IMG/VR virus record: IMGVR_UViG_3300027754_000482
Coordinates: 1 to 22,156 of that record
From: a virus
Length of the DNA stretch: 22,156 nt
Strand: one strand, 5' to 3'
The notes beneath the pieces were generated by a model. It worked only from the letters and a program-made list of their open reading frames with translations, was not told the origin of the DNA and ran no database searches. Positions 2,606 through 20,650 of the stretch are shown in pieces; the first letter of the stretch is position 1; the number at the start of each line of letters is the position of its first letter. The translations under genes and the position numbers were made by a program.

Positions 2606-3001
2606 TTATTTGGTTGCTTCTGCAATAGCCTGATACCCCTTCCAACTTGGATGGACTTTATCTGGCTGTAACGAGACGATGGGTATAACTACATCACCAA
2701 AATCATTTGCTACTTTTTTAACCAACTCCTGTATATTGGGTTTAATAGCCGGAAGAATCCAGAAGACTCTTTGGGCTTTGGCATTTGCCCGCATAAATCT
2801 CAGCTCGGTTTCTGTTTTAACACCAGCGTGATCATTTGATCCCAAACTAATAATTACCGTGTTAGCAGTTAGATCTTTATCGTGGAACCGTCGATTCCAT
2901 TGCCAAGAGTTATACCCACCAACTGAATAACTGACACAGTCTTTTCTAACTATAGCAGTACCTACCCCAATACTATCACCAAGTATCAGACACTCTAGCA
3001 T
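2606..3001 (-). CDS. SGNH/GDSL-family hydrolase
   Basis: A 131-residue protein with the blocks of the SGNH hydrolase superfamily: block I GDSIG with nucleophile S10, block II Gly in YSVGG (about 29), block III GSND with N56, and block V D114-K-V-H117. All four name-giving residues are present. These enzymes are esterases or lipases; in phages they may deacetylate or de-esterify surface or tail polymers. No signal peptide is seen. The start (MLECLILG) overlaps the ligase stop as TAATG, and an upstream in-frame start at 3037 would sit inside the ligase gene. Substrate unknown. Confidence 0.8.
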   Translation of the reverse strand: MLECLILGDSIGVGTAIVRKDCVSYSVGGYNSWQWNRRFHDKDLTANTVIISLGSNDHAGVKTETELRFMRANAKAQRVFWILPAIKPNIQELVKKVANDFGDVVIPIVSLQPDKVHPSWKGYQAIAEATK

Positions 3002-4314
3002 TACAATTTTTCTCCCACAGCAAAGCCACGGAAACACTTGAATCGGGGAAAGCGCAAACTGTATGAACCGTCTTGATTTTGTGTCACAGCATCAGCACGG
3101 ACTTCAACAATTCTACCAACGACCAAATTACGATCCCGATAAAACTCAATTCGATTATCATCGCTAAAGCCACTACCAACATTGACGGTAATGAGCTTCC
3201 CATCGTCCATACCGGAGCAAACGAGAGCTCCAAGTCGTCCCACATTCTTACCAGTGCCTTCTTCAACATCAGTCACCTCCAGTGACACTTCGATAAAGGG
3301 TTTAAGTTTAAGCCACGCAGTGCTACGTTTACACTGATACGGTGCTTTGATATCTTTGATCATGATTCCTTCATACCCACCTGCAATGGCCTGAGCATTG
3401 ATCTCTTTGAATCGTTTTTGCCCTGCCGCAGTATCCAAATCCACCTGCTCTTGCCCCACCATGGTCACGTTGGGTAATTTGTCGCCATTGAACTCCATAA
3501 ACTTGGCAAGATGATTACTGCGGAATAACTGATCACTTTTCCAACCACCTTTTTCAAACTGAGCCAACGGCATACCATCAAACAGATGCAATACAGCATC
3601 GTTGGCTTTGACATCACTCTTGCGATGCACCTGCTTCATAAGATCTTGGAAACTACTTGACATTATCTCGCCGTCGAATACCCAGGGCTCCATCAAGCCA
3701 GCCGCTACTTTGGCGAACTGATCCTTGACATGACCAAAGTTCAGCAATTCCTTGCCGTTGCGGCTGAACTGATCCACTCGGCCCTCGGGATACACTATAG
3801 TCAAAACACGAACGCCATCCAGTTTGATCTCTACTATCTTTTTTCCGCACACTTTGCCTTCATGGTTAGCTGAGTCATGTGCCAGCTGACAGCTGAATAC
3901 CGGCACCGCATAATCAGGATACTGTTTAGCCACTACATTGTTGATGGTCTTTTCGCTGACACCACAGCGGAGATCTTTGATCAGGATACGACGATACCAG
4001 CCGTTCCATTGTGCATTGGTGCTATTGTCCATGAGCTTGACCAGCATATCACGGGCGGTATTACCAGTTACCTTGCGAGTAACAAAGCCAGTGAGTGCCA
4101 GTGTAAACGAATCCCAGCTTACACCCTTGCCGTCAGCACCGCTACGCTCGGGCACCTTTTTAATGCCAAAGGTAATCATACAATCCAGAGCCAAGCGGCA
4201 CCCTTCAAAAAACTCTGCATTACCCGCCACAGCCTCATCGTCAACCACTGCTTCTTTGTAGAGGCGACTGTTATCGGATTCCAGTTTAGCAATAACTTCC
4301 CAGGGTTTCATCAT
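3001..4314 (-). CDS. ATP-dependent DNA ligase
   Basis: A 437-residue enzyme that seals nicks in duplex DNA through a lysyl-AMP intermediate. Visible motifs: I EIKLDGVR with nucleophile K164; III FDGEI (213-217); IV EGIMIKD (315-321); V WLKLKP (334-339); and the C-terminal OB-fold block with GSGFSD (380-385), RADAVTQNQDGS and RFPRF (421-425). A helical domain of about 140 residues precedes the adenylation domain, as in T4-type phage ligases. SD GGAG lies 7 nt before the ATG at 4314, just after the stop of the upstream gene, so the longer frame from 4353 is not needed. The gene carries a candidate overlapping gene at 3084-3269. Confidence 0.95.
   Translation of the reverse strand: MMKPWEVIAKLESDNSRLYKEAVVDDEAVAGNAEFFEGCRLALDCMITFGIKKVPERSGADGKGVSWDSFTLALTGFVTRKVTGNTARDMLVKLMDNSTNAQWNGWYRRILIKDLRCGVSEKTINNVVAKQYPDYAVPVFSCQLAHDSANHEGKVCGKKIVEIKLDGVRVLTIVYPEGRVDQFSRNGKELLNFGHVKDQFAKVAAGLMEPWVFDGEIMSSSFQDLMKQVHRKSDVKANDAVLHLFDGMPLAQFEKGGWKSDQLFRSNHLAKFMEFNGDKLPNVTMVGQEQVDLDTAAGQKRFKEINAQAIAGGYEGIMIKDIKAPYQCKRSTAWLKLKPFIEVSLEVTDVEEGTGKNVGRLGALVCSGMDDGKLITVNVGSGFSDDNRIEFYRDRNLVVGRIVEVRADAVTQNQDGSYSLRFPRFKCFRGFAVGEKL
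3084..3269 (-). CDS. Candidate overlapping gene inside DNA ligase: small membrane protein
   Basis: A 61-codon frame in a different reading frame of the ligase gene. The ATG at 3269 is preceded by GGAGGTGA, a near-perfect SD, with 6 nt between GGAGG and ATG. The translation has one strongly hydrophobic segment (SLPSMLVVALAMIIELSFIG). From the DDL motif on it aligns with the stand-alone protein at 16942-17088 (DDL....F.PV....SLPS.LV......EL.F.GI..W), and the DNA itself aligns. The ligase frame through this region is a conserved OB-fold block, so the SD and frame could be by-products. Treated as a hypothesis. Confidence 0.4.
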   Translation of the reverse strand: MLKKALVRMWDDLELSFAPVWTMGSSLPSMLVVALAMIIELSFIGIVIWSLVELLKSVLML

Positions 4315-4315
4315 A

Positions 4316-4741
4316 TTATTTCTCCAAGGCGTAGGGTTTGTTCCAACGGCCAATGTTCACATCCACATACCAACCCACGTTGAAGTAGTCGGTCTGGATA
4401 TCACTCTTGTCCCAGTTACCATCGTTCATTATGGACATCACTTCGATCAAAAACTTCCTCGCACGGCCTGAAAAGTGATCCCGGTAATGATACGGGTTCA
4501 CATCCAGGCTTTGATCTTTGCGGATGCAGGCAATATCGGCTTCACTCATGTAATTGCAGTAGGACTTGGCCTTGTCCGTTTCAATGTAATTTTCGATAAA
4601 ATCTATGCTACCCTGCTTGACATTAAGCACCAGGGTGCTGTGATTACGCACCGCAACACTGGCCTTGATACCGTGTTTCTTACATACTGCTCGGATGCTG
4701 GGAGCCAATTTTGCTTTAAGTTCCTGAGATACGTATGCCAT
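4316..4741 (-). CDS. Conserved hypothetical protein, first gene of ligase operon
   Basis: A 141-residue protein. The N-terminal half (MAYVSQELKAKLAP, then KKHGIKASVAVRNHSTLVL) looks like a small alpha/beta domain, and the C-terminal half contains DIQTDYFNVGWYVDVNIG. The layout resembles a domain seen in phage hypotheticals and in large polyvalent proteins (LPD type), but I cannot confirm the family. It is the first gene after the consensus promoter at 4774-4802 and ends 1 bp before the ligase ATG, so it is co-expressed with ligase. No catalytic motif seen. Confidence 0.75.
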   Translation of the reverse strand: MAYVSQELKAKLAPSIRAVCKKHGIKASVAVRNHSTLVLNVKQGSIDFIENYIETDKAKSYCNYMSEADIACIRKDQSLDVNPYHYRDHFSGRARKFLIEVMSIMNDGNWDKSDIQTDYFNVGWYVDVNIGRWNKPYALEK

Positions 4742-4773: not shown

Positions 4774-4802
4774 ATTATACAGTCTTTGGACCAGAATGTC
4801 AA
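4774..4802 (-). promoter_or_regulatory. Consensus promoter, repeated class, copy 1
   Basis: -35 TTGACA (4797-4802), 17-bp spacer, -10 TATAAT (4774-4779): a perfect sigma70 match. The -35 lies in GGTTGACATTCTGGTC, where TTCTGGT occurs twice, before and after the -35. AAGCACTTA (4820-4828) lies 17 bp upstream. It drives the gene at 4316-4741, DNA ligase and followers. Confidence 0.85.
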
Positions 4803-4833
4803 CCAGAATATATGTCCTCTAAGTGCTTGATTC

Positions 4834-5193: not shown

Positions 5194-5225
5194 ATCTGCT
5201 CCTGGTTATCTAACTGTATGTAGCT

Positions 5226-5253
5226 ATTATACGCTATTTGACCAGAATGTCAA
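5226..5253 (-). promoter_or_regulatory. Consensus promoter, repeated class, copy 2
   Basis: -35 TTGACA (5248-5253), 16-bp spacer, -10 TATAAT (5226-5231). The upstream part is nearly identical to copy 1, including AAGCACTTA (5271-5279) 17 bp before the -35. Drives the gene at 4834-5193. Confidence 0.85.
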
Positions 5254-5291
5254 CCAGAATATATGTCCCGTAAGTGCTTAATTCCATTGAG

Positions 5292-7033: not shown

Positions 7034-7281
7034 TTGTGTGTCTTCCTTAGTAGATACATGGTAACTTCTTGCTCATCAACTTTGAGACATTCGTGACCAC
7101 GCTTACGGAACGGATCTGTTGAGATACGGCGATCAAATCCCTTTACTAACACCATCTTGGGAGTACACTTTTGCACTTGTCCGACTTGGAAGGTTTTCCA
7201 ACCGTAAAATACAACGAAGTCACCGTCCCGAAGTTCATGTCCAAAGTAGTCCTGATGGATTATAGGTTCTTTAGTTTTCAT
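7030..7281 (-). CDS. Small hypothetical protein after RNA ligase
   Basis: An 83-residue protein. HELRDGDFVVFYGWKTFQVGQV and PKMVLVKGF suggest a small beta-barrel (SH3 or KOW-like), then a basic C terminus. Start overlaps the RNA ligase stop by one base (TAATG), so translation is coupled. Function unknown; a nucleic-acid role beside the ligase would be a guess. Confidence 0.7.
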   Translation of the reverse strand: MKTKEPIIHQDYFGHELRDGDFVVFYGWKTFQVGQVQKCTPKMVLVKGFDRRISTDPFRKRGHECLKVDEQEVTMYLLRKTHK

Positions 7282-8297
7282 TATCGATCTCCGTGCTTCA
7301 ACAAGTATTTGTTGGAGATTGTTTTAAAGGATATCTGACGTTCATTGCATTTAAACACTAAACCTTCTCGGTCAGCTTGTGGGTTTAATCTAGATTTGTC
7401 ATTGGCCCATGATAGAAGTTCTTCTACAGTGCCCATACCCAAATCTTTATCATCCACTATTACCGGCACATGTAGCAGTTCATGGAACTCACAAAAATCT
7501 CTACGCTCCTTAGGAGTCAAATACAATCCCTTATCAATGTCATAAATGTCAAACACGTAGAAACTCTGACCTTTGATCTTGTAGAGATTGCCCTGAATAC
7601 CCTCACCAATCAATTCACCTTGGACTGCTAGGTTACGTTGACTATCCTGTATAGCAGTTAGAATCTGATCACGGTGTGCCACTTGCCACAGGGTGTTACC
7701 TTCGGTATCGTATAGATTTAGATTGCGACTACACACTCCATAATCTTGTTCGTTGACATATACAGTCATACTGGAGCCATCTAACTTCTCAGTCAATTCC
7801 CAAGTCAATCCAGCAGTTACCCATTCAGCATGTTCTATGGTTAAATTCTGAATACGTTCCTGATCCGTTTTAGGGATAAAGCTGGGGAACATACCACGTG
7901 CCTGGCCAGCTAAACATGCAGGCACAGGTGCTTCGTATTTGACGATGTTGAGAAGATCGGACATATCCATACCTTCATGAATTTCTCCCACCTTATCCAA
8001 GGCAACGAATCGATCAAGAAGCAGACCCTGACTCAACTGCCCACGCAGTTTAACACTACGCAGACGTTCACCACGGACACCGTTGTATTCGCGTGGCTCT
8101 TTGCCCTTTGATAGGAATGGTGCCAGTTCAGTGGGAATCCAAGAATCAATTTCACAGTAGATAGCAAGATCGCCTGCCTTGAAGTCACCTTTCTTGATCA
8201 CTACAGTCCACCCACCTACCACTGCACACTCAATGGCATCAGCGTCGGAGATAGGACGGATCAAATCAATCTTACGAATGGTTGCTAATTTTCTCAT
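7281..8297 (-). CDS. RNA ligase, DraRnl (Rnl5)-like
   Basis: A 338-residue member of the covalent nucleotidyltransferase superfamily. Residues 1-140 form an OB-like N-terminal domain (RKIDLIRPISDADAIECAVV), which is typical of the DRB0094/Rnl5 family and absent from T4 Rnl2. Motif I is TEKLDGSS with nucleophile K171; QGELIGEG (227-234) is the motif III region; YVFDIYD follows; motif IV is EGLVFK (311-316); motif V is SFKTISNKYLLK (323-334). Length fits the family (about 340). Start MRKLATIRK at 8297 sits 1 bp after the upstream stop. Such ligases seal nicks with a 3'-OH RNA strand on a template. A P-loop kinase and a phosphatase lie upstream in the same direction. Confidence 0.88.
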   Translation of the reverse strand: MRKLATIRKIDLIRPISDADAIECAVVGGWTVVIKKGDFKAGDLAIYCEIDSWIPTELAPFLSKGKEPREYNGVRGERLRSVKLRGQLSQGLLLDRFVALDKVGEIHEGMDMSDLLNIVKYEAPVPACLAGQARGMFPSFIPKTDQERIQNLTIEHAEWVTAGLTWELTEKLDGSSMTVYVNEQDYGVCSRNLNLYDTEGNTLWQVAHRDQILTAIQDSQRNLAVQGELIGEGIQGNLYKIKGQSFYVFDIYDIDKGLYLTPKERRDFCEFHELLHVPVIVDDKDLGMGTVEELLSWANDKSRLNPQADREGLVFKCNERQISFKTISNKYLLKHGDR

Positions 8298-8298
8298 G

Positions 8299-8628
8299 CT
8301 AGACCTCAACGTGTTTACATTTACCGCGAAATGAAAATCCCGGACACGAACACGAGCCTGCATCCAAGTCCACTGTATATACGTTACCCTTGCTACCTTG
8401 CACCTTTTTAATGTTACGCACAGGGGCAGTCACCGCACCAAACTGTGCCACATCCACTTCTACGAATTTACGATATCGCTTGTTTAAGCGAAGCGGCGTT
8501 TTAGAATAGATAGGCTCACCAGTATGCCATTGCCGATATGCCAGAATCTTATCGCCATCAACCAAATAGGTATGATTGGGCTGTTTAAACTCCACGTTCC
8601 ACTCAGTCACTTCTTTCAGAGCCAGCAT
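8299..8628 (-). CDS. SWIM zinc-finger protein
   Basis: A 109-residue protein ending in a SWIM finger: C93-x-C95-x8-C104-x-H106 (CSCPGFSFRGKCKH). SWIM domains bind DNA or proteins and occur in transposases, SWI2/SNF2 proteins and recombination factors. The upstream 90 residues have no recognised domain. It lies directly before the RNA ligase gene (1 bp apart) and may act with it; that is inference from position. Confidence 0.8.
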   Translation of the reverse strand: MLALKEVTEWNVEFKQPNHTYLVDGDKILAYRQWHTGEPIYSKTPLRLNKRYRKFVEVDVAQFGAVTAPVRNIKKVQGSKGNVYTVDLDAGSCSCPGFSFRGKCKHVEV

Positions 8629-8752: not shown

Positions 8753-8780
8753 ACGCTCCTATCTAACAATTTATGTGTCT

Positions 8781-8808
8781 ATTATACAGGATTTGGCCAA
8801 GATGTCAA
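8781..8808 (-). promoter_or_regulatory. Consensus promoter, repeated class, copy 3
   Basis: -35 TTGACA (8803-8808), 16-bp spacer, -10 TATAAT (8781-8786). ATTCTGGTTGACA is shared with the other copies, but the AAGCACTTA element is missing upstream. Drives the tiny basic protein, SWIM protein, RNA ligase and following genes. Confidence 0.82.
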
Positions 8809-8831
8809 CCAGAATTATTTCCTTAATGGAA

Positions 8832-9858: not shown

Positions 9859-10320
9859 TCACACTCTCCAAATTTCTGTAAAGCCTTCTTCCCTGGTAGG
9901 CTCTTGCCAGCCCGCAATCATGAGTTCAACCACTTCGGGCGAGATTGTTTTGCCTATTCGAGATAGTAGACGTCTTGCATGTTCTACTGAATCTGGGACC
10001 GCAAACACCACTGCAATTGCTTCGTGGTCCGGGAGCATAGCAAACTTCTTGGCACGACTTTCAATAGTAGTAGACGTTTGATCCCAAACAATATCCAGAC
10101 CTTGTTCTCTTGCGGTAACCACATCATTTGCCATTAGATGAACTGCCGTGGGCATATAAGATTCAAACACCTCAGAATAAGTCTTTCCTTGTCGGGATGC
10201 TTCTGCCTCAACATACATGTCAGTGTTAATATAAGCCATGCCCATCATCCAGTCCTGGCTATTGACCCAAGTGGATTTCCCTGATGCCGGAACTCCCACT
10301 AACATGTACACTGTCATCAT
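9859..10320 (-). CDS. P-loop kinase, polynucleotide 5'-kinase-like
   Basis: A 153-residue protein with Walker A G9-VPASG-K15-S16-T17 near the N terminus, INTD at about 31-34, a WDQTST motif near 80 as in T4 Pnk-type kinases (cf. D-x-T/N), and an Arg-rich lid (HARRLLSRIGKTI). This matches the AAA_33/Pnkp kinase family that phosphorylates 5'-OH ends of RNA or DNA. The HAD phosphatase domain of T4 PseT is absent. Zeta-toxin kinases are an alternative, but no antitoxin lies beside it. The RNA ligase downstream makes an end-healing role plausible. Confidence 0.78.
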   Translation of the reverse strand: MMTVYMLVGVPASGKSTWVNSQDWMMGMAYINTDMYVEAEASRQGKTYSEVFESYMPTAVHLMANDVVTAREQGLDIVWDQTSTTIESRAKKFAMLPDHEAIAVVFAVPDSVEHARRLLSRIGKTISPEVVELMIAGWQEPTREEGFTEIWRV

Positions 10321-10547
10321 TCAAGTCCCCAATGTTTTGCGATTGCCAATCCCACCCAGGATACTCCTACTTTTTCTTTGGGATCATCAAGCATGGCATC
10401 CACCTTGTCAACCTGTGCCAGACAGTCTTGCACAATCAACTGGGCGAACTTTTGATGTGCTTTTGAAAGATTAGTTTGGTCAAAGCCATTCGCCTCTGGA
10501 GCAATCAATTTAGCCTCAATAGCCAATTGTTTAATTCGTTCGTTCAT
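10317..10547 (-). CDS. MNERI-family paralog 1
   Basis: A 76-residue member of the repeated family: N-terminal MNERIKQLAIEA, central KFAQLIVQDCL, C-terminal AIAKHWGLE. Predicted all-helical. Function unknown. The 5' codons form a GAACGAACGAA repeat shared by most members. Both ends overlap neighbours (ATGA with the membrane protein upstream, and the kinase start downstream). Confidence 0.8.
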   Translation of the reverse strand: MNERIKQLAIEAKLIAPEANGFDQTNLSKAHQKFAQLIVQDCLAQVDKVDAMLDDPKEKVGVSWVGLAIAKHWGLE

Positions 10548-10651
10548 ATCATATCCTTATATAACCAGCGGCGGAATCTTGTTGATACTGTTGTTAGAAC
10601 ATTGACACCAACAATAACAACGACTGCGACAATGATAACAATTTCAATCAT
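10544..10651 (-). CDS. Tiny membrane protein
   Basis: A 35-residue protein with one membrane span (MIEIVIIVAVVVIVGV) and a basic tail (STRFRRWLYKDMI), predicted N-out/C-in. The SD GGAG lies inside a leftover of the MNERI-family 3' end (10649-10673). Its stop overlaps the next start as ATGA. Function unknown. Confidence 0.65.
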   Translation of the reverse strand: MIEIVIIVAVVVIVGVNVLTTVSTRFRRWLYKDMI

Positions 10652-10671
10652 GTTTAACTCCAAAATGTTGT

Positions 10672-10914
10672 TTATCTAAGTCCAAATCTATTCTGTATAG
10701 TGATATACCCATAGTGCAAAGCACCGCGCCCTGCCGCTAATTTTTCAGGATAGGCACTACCAAAGTCTGAATAGGTACTGTGAACAGCATCTAAACATTC
10801 AGCAATAATCAACTGGGCGAACTTTTCAAGGTCTTCTTCGATGTATGGTTTGTCGGGTGTCATAACATATGACAATCTGGCTTTAATAGCAAGTTCTTTA
10901 ATTCGTTCGTTCAT
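10672..10914 (-). CDS. MNERI-family paralog 2
   Basis: An 80-residue paralog: MNERIKELAIKARL, EKFAQLIIAECLDAV, and a diverged C terminus ITIQNRFGLR in place of IKxHFGVE. The divergent end and a second copy of the usual 3' end just downstream (10649-10673) suggest a recombination event at its tail. Start overlaps paralog 3 as ATGA. Confidence 0.8.
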   Translation of the reverse strand: MNERIKELAIKARLSYVMTPDKPYIEEDLEKFAQLIIAECLDAVHSTYSDFGSAYPEKLAAGRGALHYGYITIQNRFGLR

Positions 10915-11111
10915 TCTTTCACTCCGAAATGTTGTTTAATTCGATATCCAGCCATCCAACTTCCTCGTTCTGCACATTTGTCTGCTTCAGCAACACATTC
11001 CCGAACAATCAACTCGGCGAACTTTTCTGTGGCTTCGTGTGCATTTCCAACTCGACTGCCAGGACCTAATAGCCCAGCCTGTTCAGCAAATTGTTTAATC
11101 TTCTCGTTCAT
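10911..11111 (-). CDS. MNERI-family paralog 3
   Basis: A 66-residue paralog and the closest to the family consensus: MNEKIKQFAEQAGLLG, EKFAELIVRECVAEADKC, YRIKQHFGVKE. Its last codons supply the SD GGAG for paralog 2. Start overlaps the upstream gene (ATGA). Confidence 0.82.
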   Translation of the reverse strand: MNEKIKQFAEQAGLLGPGSRVGNAHEATEKFAELIVRECVAEADKCAERGSWMAGYRIKQHFGVKE

Positions 11112-11323
11112 TTAACTATATTCCTGTTTTGGATCAGTTGTTCAAAGGTCCTAAACATCTTGTCAAATTTTAATTCATACAACTGCTTCATGCCCAATAA
11201 TATATTGGCAATTTGATCAGTAGTCATATCTGACTCCAATACACCCTCACACAATGTATCGATATCTGAAGTAACATTCCAGCATGCCATAATTTGTTGC
11301 TCTAAATCAAATCGATCGTTCAT
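11108..11323 (-). CDS. Conserved small phage protein
   Basis: A 71-residue acidic/helical protein, MNDRFDLEQQIMACWNVTSD at the start and LLGMKQLYELKFDKMFRTFE later. Near-identical short proteins are common in freshwater phages without known function. It shares MNxR at the start with the MNERI family but not the rest, so I keep it apart. Overlaps: ATGA downstream with paralog 3, TAATG upstream. Confidence 0.78.
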   Translation of the reverse strand: MNDRFDLEQQIMACWNVTSDIDTLCEGVLESDMTTDQIANILLGMKQLYELKFDKMFRTFEQLIQNRNIVK

Positions 11324-11499
11324 TATTTCTCCTTGGGAATTTGGTTATAGGGCATATTGTGTTTGAAACTTTCTTCCATTATATGTGCCAAGTCATCTTC
11401 AAATTTCGTATATCCAGGACTGGCCTTTAGCTGTTGCCAGAATGGACTGTTGGGATCATCGCTGAACACTTCCTTGATACTGGTCTTATATGCTTTCAT
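11323..11499 (-). CDS. Tiny hypothetical protein
   Basis: A 58-residue protein, MKAYKTSIKEVFSDDPNSPF then WQQLKASPGYTKFEDDLAH. No family recognised. It fills the gap between neighbours exactly, overlapping upstream as ATGA and downstream as TAATG, with SD AGGAAG. Confidence 0.65.
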   Translation of the reverse strand: MKAYKTSIKEVFSDDPNSPFWQQLKASPGYTKFEDDLAHIMEESFKHNMPYNQIPKEK

Positions 11500-11675
11500 T
11501 TTTCTTCCTCTTCAAAATCGAACCATTCGTATATTTCATTTGTTATTGCTTCATTGATACATGTTTTAATATCATCTTGTGTTGGATCGGGATTATGTTT
11601 AAATGCACGATTGTATCCAAGATTAACTCCAGCATTAATACACATCTCCAAAACAGGATATATTTTAGGTTTCAT
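11496..11675 (-). CDS. Tiny conserved hypothetical protein
   Basis: A 59-residue protein with MCINAGVNLGYNRAFKHNPD and an acidic tail (YEWFDFEEEEK). The GVNLGYNRA/HKH pattern recurs in short phage proteins of unknown role. Overlaps both neighbours as ATGA. Confidence 0.7.
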   Translation of the reverse strand: MKPKIYPVLEMCINAGVNLGYNRAFKHNPDPTQDDIKTCINEAITNEIYEWFDFEEEEK

Positions 11676-11824
11676 TTTTTCTTCCGGAGGAATTTAAAGG
11701 TTAATCCATCCTTGAATCCTTGTTTAAAAGGAGTGAGTGGTGCCCATATAATATATCCAATTATAATACCATGAATAAACACTACTGCCAGTAATACTAC
11801 TATTTCAAAGCCGTCCATGTTCAT
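11672..11824 (-). CDS. Tiny single-span membrane protein
   Basis: A 50-residue protein with a transmembrane segment at about 7-29 (EIVVLLAVVFIHGIIIGYII) and a basic C terminus (KFLRKKK) that likely stays in the cytoplasm. Starts at the stop of paralog 4 (TAATG), whose final GGAG codons give its SD. Function unknown. Confidence 0.7.
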   Translation of the reverse strand: MNMDGFEIVVLLAVVFIHGIIIGYIIWAPLTPFKQGFKDGLTFKFLRKKK

Positions 11825-12045
11825 TATTCAACTCCGAAATGTCGTTTAATCGCACCACTGCATTCTCTCGCAAAGATAGCAGTAGGTGCCTGATCGTGTA
11901 GGAACCTGCCACCTTCTACAACCCCAACACATTCTCGCACAATCATCTCGGCGAAGAATTCTATCTCTTTGTTAGTCACTGCTTTGTTATCGTATGCAAT
12001 GTATAGTCCGCATTCATCTGCGATTTCTTTAATTCGTTCGTTCAT
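11824..12045 (-). CDS. MNERI-family paralog 4
   Basis: A 73-residue paralog: MNERIKEIADECGLYIAYD, EFFAEMIVRECVGVV, AIKRHFGVE. Coupled by ATGA to paralog 5 upstream and by TAATG to the small membrane protein downstream. Confidence 0.82.
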   Translation of the reverse strand: MNERIKEIADECGLYIAYDNKAVTNKEIEFFAEMIVRECVGVVEGGRFLHDQAPTAIFARECSGAIKRHFGVE

Positions 12046-12299
12046 TCTTCTACTCCGAAATGTTTTCTAATCTTGCTGTTTACTTCGCTTGCTTCACGGT
12101 ATGATTCCAAAAAATCATAATTGAACTGGCAACAATCCTTCACAATCAACTCGGCGAACTTTTCGCTAAACTGTGTCCATTTGTCAAACTCTTTATGCCA
12201 CTCAGGGTTGCCGGTAAACGTTGCAGGGACTGGTCCAGTATATGTTTCATTCACATAGTTGCCAGCCTGCACAGCAAGTTCTTCAATTCGTTCGTTCAT
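12042..12299 (-). CDS. MNERI-family paralog 5
   Basis: An 85-residue paralog with a longer variable loop between the N-terminal block (MNERIEELAVQAGNYV) and the core (EKFAELIVKDCCQF); ends SKIRKHFGVEE. Starts at the stop of the Cys-rich gene (TAATG). Confidence 0.82.
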   Translation of the reverse strand: MNERIEELAVQAGNYVNETYTGPVPATFTGNPEWHKEFDKWTQFSEKFAELIVKDCCQFNYDFLESYREASEVNSKIRKHFGVEE

Positions 12300-12490
12300 T
12301 ATTCGCCTTCCTTTTTCAATAACTTAAAACAAAAATAATCTTGGCATTCGCTACCTGGGTGTTCTGCTCGCTTGTGTAAGCGACAAAATCCATTATTAGT
12401 GTAGCGGCCTTCTGTATCGCCATTAAAATTATAATAGGCACAATGGTCACAGCATATACCACGTGGATCACAATCTGGGCACAAAGTCAT
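12299..12490 (-). CDS. Cys-rich putative zinc-binding protein
   Basis: A 63-residue protein with eight cysteines (C4, C7, C13, C14, C17, C36, C49, C54) and two histidines (H16, H39): CPDCDPRGICCDHCAYYNF, then GFCRLHKRAEHPGSEC. This could hold two zinc ions. The CCDHCAYY...C..H.....C..Y.C spacing recurs in phage hypothetical proteins. Function unknown. Coupled to both neighbours. Confidence 0.75.
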   Translation of the reverse strand: MTLCPDCDPRGICCDHCAYYNFNGDTEGRYTNNGFCRLHKRAEHPGSECQDYFCFKLLKKEGE

Positions 12491-12705
12491 TCTTCAATTC
12501 CCAATGTAGCTGGATTGTGATCCAATCTGTTACCTTTGTCATCTGAATAGAATGTGGCATCCGCATCCGTTATTGTAACACACAAATCACTATGAAGCAA
12601 GTCATAATCAGTAAAATCAAAATTGGCTTTATATACTCTGAACCGATATCTGCCATCAAAGCACCGAATTAAGAATCCCGTTACACCGTTAGCTGATAGT
12701 TTCAT
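12487..12705 (-). CDS. Small hypothetical phage protein
   Basis: A 72-residue, beta-rich protein: GFLIRCFDGRYRFRVY, DYDLLHSDLCVTITDADATF, DHNPATLGIEE. It looks like a small compact beta domain. Function unknown. ATGA overlaps at both ends. Confidence 0.72.
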   Translation of the reverse strand: MKLSANGVTGFLIRCFDGRYRFRVYKANFDFTDYDLLHSDLCVTITDADATFYSDDKGNRLDHNPATLGIEE

Positions 12706-13271
12706 TCTTCTTGGTGAATGTGAGTTGGATCTAATTCAAGGACATCTTGTTTGGTAATCTCACCGCTTTTAACTTTTTCAACTAGATCCACCAAGGCCAT
12801 ATTAATGTAGGCGTTGAGAGTAATGTTTCGTTTGTGGGCTTCTAATGCCGCTTGTAAAAGAAGATCGTCTGGTAAATCAATAGGAACTAGCACACCAGTA
12901 TCGTAATCTTCTCCAGCCTTAATAGCCAGACACTTTTGGATAAAGTCGTCATCCACTTCCAAATCAATATAGTTGACATCATCCCATGCTTGATTTTCTA
13001 GCACATTTCTATTCTCAGCTTCCTTACGATGTTTTTCAACATTTTTAGGATTGATCATGCGGTAAGCACGGTTATTGGTATAGTCACACATACTGACTTC
13101 GTAAACTTTTTGGCTTTTGGTACTAAACACGATACTGAAACTATAGCCATCCTGCTCACCGTTCCACGAATCCAGTGTATAGGCATTAGGTCCATAACAC
13201 GACCACATGTAATCACTGCCCTCAGTAATTTTATAGTCAACCAATTCCATCCATTCTCGCATATTCAACAT
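12702..13271 (-). CDS. Hypothetical protein with ribbon-helix-helix-like C terminus
   Basis: A 189-residue protein, first gene after the promoter at 13296-13324. Residues 1-120 form an unnamed phage domain (MREWMELVDYKI, SFSIVFSTKSQKVYEVSM, NNRAYRMINPKN, AWDDVNYIDLEVDDD). Residues 127-165 (LVPIDLPDDLLLQAALEAHK, then NITLNAYINMALVDL) match the strand-helix-helix pattern of RHH DNA-binding domains such as HicB or Arc. It may bind its own promoter, but no operator was identified. SD AAGGAG. Confidence 0.75.
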   Translation of the reverse strand: MLNMREWMELVDYKITEGSDYMWSCYGPNAYTLDSWNGEQDGYSFSIVFSTKSQKVYEVSMCDYTNNRAYRMINPKNVEKHRKEAENRNVLENQAWDDVNYIDLEVDDDFIQKCLAIKAGEDYDTGVLVPIDLPDDLLLQAALEAHKRNITLNAYINMALVDLVEKVKSGEITKQDVLELDPTHIHQEE

Positions 13272-13295
13272 TTCATACTCCTTAAAGGTTAAAAT

Positions 13296-13324
13296 ATTAT
13301 AACGTAAAACTTATTTTAAGTCAA
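13296..13324 (-). promoter_or_regulatory. Sigma70-type promoter
   Basis: -35 TTGACT (13319-13324), 17-bp spacer, -10 TATAAT (13296-13301). The -35 lies within the last codons of paralog 6. Drives the RHH-like gene and the long coupled run that follows. Confidence 0.75.
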
Positions 13325-13565
13325 CTCCGTAAAAATATTCCCTAATGGCCACATAACTGTCAACACCGCATTGAACATAACCATCCCAATGTGTGTCCTT
13401 CATCATATCTTCATCTTCCAACACAGGTTTGTATTGTTCTTCAACCTGACGCATACATTCCCGCACAATCAACACGGCGAAACCTTGAATCCACTCTTGC
13501 GTATAATAAGTGGGACAGTATTGTTTTGTAGCCTGAGCGGCAAGTTCTCGAATTCGTTCGTTCAT
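13311..13565 (-). CDS. MNERI-family paralog 6
   Basis: An 84-residue, more diverged paralog: MNERIRELAAQATKQYC, FAVLIVRECMRQVEEQY, ending VAIREYFYGVDLK. The C-terminal block no longer reads HFGVE and does not supply an SD; instead the end of the gene carries the -35 box of the next promoter. Start overlaps the upstream gene as ATGA. Confidence 0.8.
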   Translation of the reverse strand: MNERIRELAAQATKQYCPTYYTQEWIQGFAVLIVRECMRQVEEQYKPVLEDEDMMKDTHWDGYVQCGVDSYVAIREYFYGVDLK

Positions 13566-16125: not shown

Positions 16126-16329
16126 CTACTTACCACCCAGTATTGCACCTTCATACGTATCTACATACATTTCCACAGTGTAGTTCAATTTTGCCGCCAA
16201 CAGCTCGGCATCACACTTCAGTTTAAATGTAGCGACCGGGACACCTTCACTATATGCTTCGTTGCCATATGTAACAACAAAATCACCGGTAAGTAAACTT
16301 GTATATACAGTAAACCGTCGAGCCATCAT
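16126..16329 (-). CDS. Small hypothetical protein
   Basis: A 67-residue protein beginning MMARRFTVYTSLLTGDFVV, with KLKCDAELLAAKLN and EGAILGGK. Probably a small alpha/beta domain. The start at 16329 overlaps the stop of the short MNERI paralog as ATGA; a longer frame from 16395 is therefore rejected. Function unknown. Confidence 0.72.
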   Translation of the reverse strand: MMARRFTVYTSLLTGDFVVTYGNEAYSEGVPVATFKLKCDAELLAAKLNYTVEMYVDTYEGAILGGK

Positions 16330-16460
16330 TCGTTTTCCTTTACCAATTCTTCGGCCACCAAGTATGCAAACTTCTGGCAAAATACATTGAACCAAAGAGC
16401 ATTCAACATATCCTCGGGTGCTCCGGCTTCAACCGCAATTGCTTTCAATTCGTCATTCAT
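16326..16460 (-). CDS. Short MNERI-family paralog 7
   Basis: A 44-residue, truncated paralog: MNDELKAIAVEAGAPE and KFAYLVAEELVKENE. It keeps the N-terminal and KFAxLV blocks but lacks the variable linker and the IKxHFGVE end. ATGA overlaps at both sides support it as a translated gene. Confidence 0.72.
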   Translation of the reverse strand: MNDELKAIAVEAGAPEDMLNALWFNVFCQKFAYLVAEELVKENE

Positions 16461-16696
16461 TCTTTGACTCCAAAATGTTCTTTTACATATCGTGCAACCT
16501 GCACAGTAATATCTTCCTCGCTACAAATATCTAGATATCGTCTGTAAAAATCTACAATAGACTCCTGAGCAATTAACTGGGCGAACATATCCACATCCAA
16601 TTCGTATCCATTAAACTCCGGAGCACCGTTATATTGGTTCTCGCTCCACACTTCTTTGGTGGCAAGGGCCTTCAATGCCTCAATCCGGTCGTTCAT
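16457..16696 (-). CDS. MNERI-family paralog 8
   Basis: A 79-residue paralog: MNDRIEALKALATKEVW, DMFAQLIAQESIVDFY, RYVKEHFGVKE. The final codons give the SD GGAG for paralog 7. Starts within the stop of paralog 9. Confidence 0.82.
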   Translation of the reverse strand: MNDRIEALKALATKEVWSENQYNGAPEFNGYELDVDMFAQLIAQESIVDFYRRYLDICSEEDITVQVARYVKEHFGVKE

Positions 16697-16938
16697 TCTT
16701 CAACTCCAAAATGTTTTTTAATCTGATTCATAAAAACTTCAATTCCCATCTCTCTGCCAGCATTATATTCTTCTGATCCGTTCACCACTGCTTGCGATTG
16801 AGTCAACTTACCATGTGCTAAACATTCTAGTACAATCAACTGGGCGAACTTCTCAAACTTGTGTTCAACGATCAGTCGTTCCATTTCAGGCTGATGAAAC
16901 CCAGCCTCGTTGAATAATTTTAATAATTGTTTTTTCAT
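16693..16938 (-). CDS. MNERI-family paralog 9
   Basis: An 81-residue paralog with a changed N terminus (MKKQLLKLFNEAGFHQPE) but intact core EKFAQLIVLECLAHG and end NQIKKHFGVEE. It starts 3 bp after the stop of the small membrane protein. The SD GGAGTTGAAGA before its start is the same string that ends other family members. Confidence 0.82.
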   Translation of the reverse strand: MKKQLLKLFNEAGFHQPEMERLIVEHKFEKFAQLIVLECLAHGKLTQSQAVVNGSEEYNAGREMGIEVFMNQIKKHFGVEE

Positions 16939-16941
16939 TCT

Positions 16942-17088
16942 TCAACTCCAAAATAATATCCAAACTGCGATTCCAACAAAGCCCAATTCCATTACGATTC
17001 CAAACGTCGTCACTAAGATTGACGGTAAGGAATTTCCCCCTCCGTACAGAACCGGATCAAACATGTCTTTCAAATCATCTAGTGACAT
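16942..17088 (-). CDS. Small membrane protein related to a ligase-embedded frame
   Basis: A 48-residue protein: MSLDDLKDMFDPVLYGGG, then one hydrophobic span (LPSILVTTFGIVMELGFVGI) and AVWILFWS. SD AAGGAG lies 7 nt before the ATG at 17088; the longer frame from 17184 has no such support. The protein and its DNA align with the alternate-frame segment inside DNA ligase (3084-3269). The ligase frame in this copy has a stop (TGA), so it no longer encodes ligase. The last four codons derive from the same string as the MNERI-family 3' ends, read in another frame. Confidence 0.7.
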   Translation of the reverse strand: MSLDDLKDMFDPVLYGGGNSLPSILVTTFGIVMELGFVGIAVWILFWS

Positions 17089-17410
17089 GTCCGCACTCCT
17101 TCGTTGCCGCGTCCCAACCCAGTGCTTTGACGGCATTTTTATACACGTTTGAGTATGTAGGCCCACCGTAATCCGCAAAAGCATCCGCTAAGTCCCTCAA
17201 CGCCAGCTTCATTTCATCCCGCTCTGCGATCTCTGCTCGACGGTTCCAGATAGCATTAGCTTCGGCCTGTGATTCAATGCCGACTTCGCTCATTGTTATG
17301 CCGCAATCTTCGTTCATGCAGGCGACAACATACCAGCCGTACCTAGCATCATTAACTTCTTCGGCTGGCGAACCACAGTGAGCGCACGGTAATAGCTTCA
17401 TGACGTTCAT
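17075..17410 (-). CDS. Lar-like restriction alleviation protein
   Basis: A 111-residue protein with a zinc-ribbon of Lar type: LLPCAHCGSPAEEV (C9, C12), WYVVACMNEDCG (C31, C36), then SQAEANAIWNRR. The order C-x2-C, C-x4-C, then EAxxxWNxR is typical of the Lar family; Lar of the E. coli Rac prophage reduces restriction by type I enzymes. Residues 60-111 are a helical extension. In a phage it may blunt host restriction, which is inference. SD AGGAAG before ATG 17410; overlaps the next gene by 14 bp. Confidence 0.78.
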   Translation of the reverse strand: MNVMKLLPCAHCGSPAEEVNDARYGWYVVACMNEDCGITMSEVGIESQAEANAIWNRRAEIAERDEMKLALRDLADAFADYGGPTYSNVYKNAVKALGWDAATKECGHVTR

Positions 17411-18302: not shown

Positions 18303-18337
18303 GGTTTGTTTCTCCCGTTATTTAACTGTATGTAGCT

Positions 18338-18365
18338 ATTATACGCTATTCGACCAAGAAGTCAA
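18338..18365 (-). promoter_or_regulatory. Consensus promoter, repeated class, copy 4
   Basis: -35 TTGACT (18360-18365), 16-bp spacer, -10 TATAAT (18338-18343), in the shared context ATTCTGGTTGAC with AAGCACTTA (18384-18392) 18 bp upstream. The TAGCGTATAATAGCTACATACAG part is nearly identical to copy 2. Confidence 0.82.
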
Positions 18366-18401
18366 CCAGAATCTTGTGTGTTCTAAGTGCTTGATTTTAC
18401 T

Positions 18402-18823: not shown

Positions 18824-19810
18824 TTACTTAACTTGCGTGGCCCAATCTTTTCGGATCTGTGCTTTGACTGATTCTGGCAACGGAACATAGTCTAACTCTA
18901 CGGCAGACTTGTCGCCTTTGGCAAATACCCAATCAAAGAATTTAATGGCTTCCTTGGTATTAGCATTACCTTCTTTGAACAGTAGAATAAATGTTGCCGC
19001 AGTAATTGGCCAACCATCTTTGTTATTTAAATTAACAGCCATACCGGGCGTTTTCCAATCTGCTGATTTGGCGGCAATAGCAAATGTAGTGTCGTCTGGC
19101 TCAACTGGGTTGCCTTTCTTATCTAACATACGAACATAGTTCATTTTGGCCTGCTTGACATAAGCATACTCCACATAGCCAATTGCACCAGACACTTGTT
19201 GTGAAAATGCCGCAACACCTGCATTGCCTTTACCTGCTATCGTTTGTGGTGCCTTCCAACTAACCGTTTTACCCATTCCTATTTCATTTTTAAACTCTGC
19301 ACTGACCTGTGACAGGTAATCTGTGAATACCGCAGTAGTACCGCTGCCATCTGCACGTACAACGCGACTAATTGATTGATCTGGTAGTGGTAGTTTGGGA
19401 TTTAATTTCTTGATAGCCGGATCATTCCAATTATTGATCTTGCCATGAAAGATGTCCGCCAATGTTTTTCCATCTAATACCAATTGACCAGCTTCAATAC
19501 CTTTGATATTGACCACAGGAACCACTCCGCCTATCACAGACGGAAATTGATAGTAACCTTTTGCTTTTATTTCATCTGCTGTCATTGGATCATCAGTCGC
19601 ACCGAAGTCAAATGTTTTAGCTTCCATCTGTCTAATGCCGCCCGAAGAGCCAATTGATTGATAATTTACCCTAACACCAGTTTCTCTGTTGTACTCTCCT
19701 GCCCACTTTGCGTAAATTGGTGCTGGGAAAGTTGCACCACCACCAGTAACAAATTGTGCCTGTGCAGACACTGTAACCATTAACAATAAAATAACAAATA
19801 GTTTTTTCAC
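18824..19810 (-). CDS. pstS: Periplasmic phosphate-binding protein PstS
   Basis: A 328-residue phosphate-binding component of the Pst ABC transporter. Signal peptide at 1-18 (MKKLFVILLLMVTVSAQA, basic start, hydrophobic core, AQA site), so the product is periplasmic. Ligand motifs: GGGATFPAP (23-31), SIGSSGG (52-58), DFGATDDP and RADGSGTT. Length fits the family. The start is GTG at 19810 with SD AGGAG 8 nt before. No pstC, pstA or pstB lie nearby, so the protein would serve the host transporter to raise phosphate uptake in infected cells, as proposed for cyanophage pstS. A Pho box and SD-masking repeat lie upstream. The sequence looks proteobacterial, consistent with acquisition from a host. 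Confidence 0.95.
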   Translation of the reverse strand: MKKLFVILLLMVTVSAQAQFVTGGGATFPAPIYAKWAGEYNRETGVRVNYQSIGSSGGIRQMEAKTFDFGATDDPMTADEIKAKGYYQFPSVIGGVVPVVNIKGIEAGQLVLDGKTLADIFHGKINNWNDPAIKKLNPKLPLPDQSISRVVRADGSGTTAVFTDYLSQVSAEFKNEIGMGKTVSWKAPQTIAGKGNAGVAAFSQQVSGAIGYVEYAYVKQAKMNYVRMLDKKGNPVEPDDTTFAIAAKSADWKTPGMAVNLNNKDGWPITAATFILLFKEGNANTKEAIKFFDWVFAKGDKSAVELDYVPLPESVKAQIRKDWATQVK

Positions 19811-19873: not shown

Positions 19874-19891
19874 GTTACCGTTTCATTACAG
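19874..19891 (-). promoter_or_regulatory. Pho box upstream of pstS
   Basis: CTGTAAT, GAAA, CGGTAAC: two 7-bp half-sites separated by 4 A-rich bases, close to the PhoB consensus (CTGTCAT, 4 bp, CTGTCAT). A candidate -10 TAGTAT (19853-19858) lies downstream. It overlaps the 3' end of the lipase gene. Implies induction by host PhoB under phosphate starvation. Confidence 0.68.
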
Positions 19892-20650
19892 TTGGTTAAT
19901 TTTTTGCCCAGAGTCGCGAATCTTTTCCAACTTAGTTATATATCCGGTCATTAGATGATCCTGTATACCATCAAACAATCTGAAGTTTTTCAAATCATGC
20001 CAATGTGCCCGCAACCGATCTTTGAACCGTTGATATGTGGTTAATGGACGAATGTTGCCATAGAAGTTAATGTAGCACAATTCGCCATAGTGTTCAAATC
20101 CCAGGGCTTGTGGTGGTACATGTGTCACCAAGTCGTTGCAATTTACAAAACGCCAATGCGGTGATTTAATCTGTGCAATATATTCTTCATTACCCAAGCG
20201 TGGTGAACCAAATGTATATAGTTCAATATGGCTGTGCCCAGCAAATTCCAATTCCTGAACCAAATACAATGCCATGGCGGCACCCAAACTATGTCCAGTT
20301 ACATAAATGTCCTTGCCTTTGTGTTTCTCTGCCCAGGCTAATACCTCAGGTAATAGTTTACGAGCTTCTCTGCGGAATCCTTTGTGAACCCAACCAGTTC
20401 CATTGGTTTTGGGAAAAGCATTTAAATCTGCCAACAAATCGCTGGGCTGATTGGGTTGTGTACCGCGGCAAGTGATAATAACTTCTGTATCACTTGCGGC
20501 CAAATGTCCTTCAGCATCGTTATGCTCTAAAAACTTATACTCATTAAATCCCAATTGTGAAAATATTTCTTGATTGTCGTTATTGTAGGCAGAGTCTGAC
20601 AATTTTGCCATAAGTAGGGCGGCTTCTTCCAACGTAAGTAAATGTATCAT
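19886..20650 (-). CDS. Class 3 lipase (alpha/beta hydrolase)
   Basis: A 254-residue lipase of the class 3 family (PF01764 type). Nucleophile motif TGHSLGAA with S121, catalytic D173 in NDLVTHVPP and H232 in QDHLMTG; the oxyanion-side strand reads VIITCRGTQ with GW.HKGF further on. All three triad residues are present, so it should be active on acyl esters. No signal peptide is seen, so it would act in the cytoplasm, on host membranes, or after lysis. It may release fatty acids, alter membranes or help lysis; the substrate is unknown. SD GGAG lies before MIHLLTLEE. It is upstream of pstS and read-through could carry both. Confidence 0.9.
   Translation of the reverse strand: MIHLLTLEEAALLMAKLSDSAYNNDNQEIFSQLGFNEYKFLEHNDAEGHLAASDTEVIITCRGTQPNQPSDLLADLNAFPKTNGTGWVHKGFRREARKLLPEVLAWAEKHKGKDIYVTGHSLGAAMALYLVQELEFAGHSHIELYTFGSPRLGNEEYIAQIKSPHWRFVNCNDLVTHVPPQALGFEHYGELCYINFYGNIRPLTTYQRFKDRLRAHWHDLKNFRLFDGIQDHLMTGYITKLEKIRDSGQKINQL

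Follow-up and report, generated by a model that had tools for sequence, protein, structure and literature searches.

The window analysed here is a viral sequence of 22,156 nucleotides, comprising positions 1 to 22,156 of IMG/VR record IMGVR_UViG_3300027754_000482. Among 50,697 phage records, none is a near match to this 22 kb record. A preliminary description, made from the letters of the DNA, had pointed to a stand-alone small gene that shares DNA with an open reading frame embedded in a ligase gene thirteen kilobases away. The features concerned are as follows.

3001..4353, minus strand: ATP-dependent DNA ligase, of the putative source gene's family (PF01068, PF14743; phrog_114, E 7.7e-88)
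3084..3269, minus strand: embedded +1 open reading frame inside the ligase 3′ end, 61 codons, with GGAGGTGA shortly before its ATG; candidate gene
3123..3239, minus strand: part of the ligase that matches the small gene, read in +1; end of the OB domain, GRLGALVCSGMDDGKLITVNVGSGFSDDNRIEFYRDRNL in the ligase frame (local alignment, repeat D6)
16693..16938, minus strand: downstream small gene, member of a tandem family (from sequence; repeats D1-D3)
16942..17088, minus strand: stand-alone small gene, 48 codons (open reading frame call)
16960..17079, minus strand: ligase-homologous part of the small gene (local alignment; blastn against the ligase part within the record, E 2.4e-6)
17075..17410, minus strand: Lar-like restriction alleviation gene, directly upstream of the small gene (PF14354, E 8.1e-10)
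Small gene product: predicted amphipathic N-terminal part (residues 3-15) and one predicted membrane helix (residues 21-47)

The small gene is closely packed between its neighbours. It shares 14 nt with the Lar-like gene, and an AAGGAG shortly 5′ of its ATG forms a Shine-Dalgarno-like site. A gap of 3 nt separates its end from the ATG of the next gene at 16938, whose ribosome site overlaps the small gene's last codons (FWS stop). These last codons match the gene-boundary sequence TTTTGGAGTTGAAGAATG, which also terminates a neighbouring gene. At the upstream edge of the ligase-like part lies the stop codon of the Lar-like gene. Because the FWS-stop end matches this local boundary sequence, the ligase-derived part amounts to about 120 bp, with local sequence on both sides.

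The AlphaFold2 model of the 48-residue protein contains helices at residues 3-15 and 21-47, the second of 27 residues, with a pLDDT of about 90 over the C-terminal 20 residues. The protein is in no Pfam or PHROG family, and a Foldseek search against viral models gave no match. The product is most likely a single-span protein that would act as an accessory factor of the inner membrane.

The downstream gene belongs to a tandem small-gene family that occupies 10317-13565 and 16126-16938, and whose members have a common ‘FAQLI’ core and near-identical gene-boundary sequences (repeats D1-D3). Genes of this family are dispersed near the ligase in related loci too.

Common ancestry of the small gene and ligase DNA

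The likeness between the two regions spans 117-120 nt. A recount over 25 codons from the SLPS motif returned exactly the figures first reported, 51 identical bases of 75, with the differences falling at 13 third, 7 first and 4 second positions of the membrane frame. Further likeness had been described upstream, beyond a one-codon gap. An unconstrained local alignment of ligase 3239-3123 with 17079-16960 covers that upstream part too, and the DNA places the small gene's start codon opposite Met9 of the embedded frame, in agreement with the gap. A repeat search over the whole window recovers the pair unprompted (family D6, 79 nt at 71%). At the protein level, blastp of the small protein against the embedded peptide gives E 2e-12, with 48% identity over 40 residues.

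Two hydrophobic frames might resemble each other by chance or convergence, with no common ancestor, especially as both encode membrane helices and the middle position of hydrophobic codons is rich in T. The shuffled control proposed in the preliminary description speaks against this, since none of 5000 dinucleotide shuffles reached the alignment score under either of two scoring schemes. Because both frames encode membrane helices, membrane open reading frames were added as a second null: the pair has a protein score of 97, whereas the best of 450 other, unrelated and unique membrane-segment frames from related loci scores 53. High DNA scores of other frames in this null come from ligase sequence that remained where loci had been masked incompletely, chiefly L025. 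Moreover, in 1.1 Mb of related phage DNA outside the window, the clearest matches to the small gene (blastn E 1.3e-4) fall on the corresponding stretch of ligases from other phages. Convergence is therefore very improbable, and a shared DNA ancestry of the small gene and the ligase is confirmed. A template/variable repeat pair of a diversity-generating system was considered separately and rejected, as the mismatches are not adenine-specific and the genes searched include no reverse transcriptase.

The two partners differ greatly in distribution. The ligase is present in 719 phage records and in at least 598 viral contig stretches. For the small protein, no second copy was found in whole related records, phages, plasmids, prokaryote genomes or viral contigs, in searches by exact short peptides or tblastn, which very distant relatives would escape. 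Nor did the collections searched hold an independent family of the 48-residue protein lacking likeness to ligase DNA, a case that the preliminary description had raised. As the ligase is old and widespread and the small gene an orphan whose closest outside DNA lies in other ligases, these comparisons strongly favour derivation of the small gene from ligase DNA.

The donor could be the ligase of this record or that of a close relative, and another ligase lineage is possible. Over the 75 bases, the small gene shares 51 with its own ligase, 49 with that of L047 and 48 with that of L055. When substitutions are assigned to branches, 19 fall on the small gene's own branch (10 third, 6 first and 3 second positions of the membrane frame) compared to 4 on the ligase branch. 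Relatives of the locus were also sought through the neighbouring Lar-like gene and a 399-aa gene; none was found.

The ligases themselves give signs of exchange. In the ligase tree, the window ligase groups with L003 over its first 355 codons, and its codons 361-405 are about 95% identical to those of L022, L055, L083 and L047. The ligase of L083 switches from L041-like to L022-like sequence. The common 3′ segment is dispersed over unrelated branches of the tree, and patches common to several ligases are found elsewhere in the gene too. Going by these patterns, ligases of this family are mosaics, with 3′ segments swapped between otherwise divergent genes (L083, L022, L041, L055, L047). Frequent recombination over short likeness would be a plausible route for an ectopic copy.

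Reading frames in the copy and in the ligase

Codons of the membrane frame begin at the second position of ligase codons, and the small gene is thus read in a different frame from the ligase. A TGA stop had been reported in the ligase frame of the copy. That frame is indeed broken, by stops that lie upstream of the 25 aligned codons; none lies inside them. The preliminary description also took the positional counts as a sign of selection on the membrane frame. The counts are right, but the skew is weak when taken by itself (chi-square about 5.25, 2 d.f., p about 0.07). A more direct comparison places the same substitutions at random: a membrane-frame score as good as that observed arises in 0.65% of trials (p = 0.006, resting on 24 substitutions in one sequence pair, the small gene being known from one copy), while the ligase frame scores below 99.4% of placements. 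These values suggest that the copy changed conservatively in the membrane frame and that its ligase frame was not preserved.

The same figures bear on whether the small gene is a gene at all, as it could be a non-functional piece of ligase that has retained a short open frame by chance. A stop-free frame is not a rare outcome, arising in 0.39 of random placements of the same substitutions, and the weak skew and the single copy would fit such a remnant. The conservative change of the membrane frame is harder to reconcile with it, as are the ribosome site, the upstream overlap and the 3-nt gap to the next start within a compact run of genes. On balance, we regard a chance remnant as unlikely.

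Within the ligase, the motif VNVGSGFSDxxR becomes strongly hydrophobic when read in +1, so that the hydrophobicity of the embedded frame is largely a by-product of this motif. Likewise, the start codon and Shine-Dalgarno-like site of the embedded frame are largely by-products of the ligase residues SLEVTDVEEGTG (LEV-DV).

Nevertheless, the embedded frame might itself be a functional overlapping membrane gene, and the stand-alone gene a true paralog freed from the overlap. This would be a sub-case of the copying of ligase DNA, and it shares in the probability of that reading. Several observations are in its favor. In 49 ligases, +1 stops over the embedded frame number 33 compared to 128.7 expected, a fourfold depletion (ratio 0.26), while other purine-ending codons are in excess (458 compared to 366 expected). 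The depletion starts at the embedded ATG and ends at the usual stop. It persists after thinning to mutually dissimilar sequences (23 compared to 40, n = 17), although the stop counts are not independent, given that the ligases are related and recombine. In addition, 39 of 68 ligases retain a start codon and a Shine-Dalgarno-like site, with an open frame of 50 codons or more.

Other observations weigh against a gene at this position. Synonymous change over the frame is not lowered, at 0.89-1.06 of expected in the unbiased ligase set, and the start signals follow from ligase residues as described above. Mosaic ligases, together with the selection of hits, account for the high identity that the overlap shows to L022, L055, L083 and L047. 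Ligase codons 145-203 (ratio 0.33) and 85-104 (0.34) are equally depleted of +1 stops and contain no plausible gene in the window, where the +1 frame of codons 145-203 is broken by stops. With two other blocks equally depleted, the depletion over the embedded frame is only suggestive of a gene.

Three further measures were set aside. An apparent synonymous constraint in the overlap (0.81-0.88 identical codons compared to 0.44-0.47) came from relatives fetched by likeness in that very frame, and is absent from the unbiased set. Position-class rates in the hit-selected ligases share this ascertainment bias and were not used as evidence. Hydropathy compared to synonymous shuffles was dropped because control regions gave equally large z-scores.

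The preliminary description had offered two readings: duplication of a ligase fragment that took on a new frame, or true paralogy of the membrane gene and the embedded frame. The first is well supported by an old, widespread ligase, an orphan small gene and nearest DNA in other ligases. The second is possible: +1 stops are depleted, but synonymous change is not slowed and two other ligase blocks are depleted alike. A broad phage ligase family that carries a conserved overlapping one-helix membrane gene at its 3′ end, with a freed copy here and both stages in one genome, is a doubtful possibility, to which we give rather less than an even chance.

Codons 145-203 themselves form a second long open +1 block across the ligase family, for example in L007 and L010, with 49 stops compared to 144-185 expected.

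Proposed origin and its nearest precedents

It is probable that a fragment of ligase DNA was copied and that this copy, read in the membrane frame, is a one-helix gene. The specific version in which the embedded ligase frame is no gene, and overprinting followed the copying, has by our estimate close to an even chance. Ectopic recombination would have placed a copy of some 120 bp of DNA ligase 3′ sequence, from either the record's own phage or a near relative, among small accessory genes, with the Lar-like gene on one side and a member of the small tandem family on the other. There the fragment would be translated one base out of phase with the ligase, starting at an ATG that has a Shine-Dalgarno-like site to itself. 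It may have brought a membrane helix ready-made, given the hydrophobic +1 reading of VNVGSGFSDxxR. Afterwards, change in the membrane frame would have been conservative, and the ligase frame would have decayed.

The nearest precedent, by analogy, is gene E of phiX174, which overlaps gene D by overprinting (PMC8227390). Gene E likewise yields a new hydrophobic membrane protein from an older gene read out of frame, by the same shift, in which the old third position becomes the new second position (PMC8227390). E has stayed within D and acts in lysis, whereas the small gene would be a copied fragment free of the ligase. Its resemblance to an E-type lysis protein consists of the predicted membrane helix, with no match in sequence or fold.

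More generally, overprinting is well established as a source of new genes, and there too a coding sequence gives rise to a new protein through another of its frames (PMC6542195). The present case would differ in that duplication frees the new frame from ligase constraint, with the old gene intact elsewhere in the record. The phage ATP-dependent DNA ligase (phrog_114; PF01068 with PF14743) would be the source of the DNA, but the small gene no longer keeps the ligase reading frame and codes for no part of a ligase. A literature search, conducted mostly outside subscription papers, found none on a gene overlapping a DNA ligase or on a freed copy of one.

The birth of a small gene from a copied, frame-shifted piece of ligase would be a rarely caught route to a new gene. 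Orphan small genes of obscure origin abound in phages, and here one source can be named, the motif of a widespread enzyme. Read in +1, this motif already encodes a membrane helix, with a ribosome site and start codon already in front of it. A named source makes de novo gene birth testable. If the embedded frame were a true gene, ligase annotations across many phages would be missing one gene.

Elsewhere in the window, an RNA ligase (7281-8363; phrog_968) and an AAA_33-type kinase (9859-10320) are perhaps an RNA repair pair. A phosphate-binding PstS-like protein (18824-19810; phrog_5385) is encoded next to a class 3 lipase gene (19886-20650). Finally, conserved intergenic repeats of 48-56 nt (D4, D5), up to 92% identical, lie at 4786-4833, 5205-5284, 8760-8815 and 18317-18397, and are possibly a phage promoter or regulatory element.
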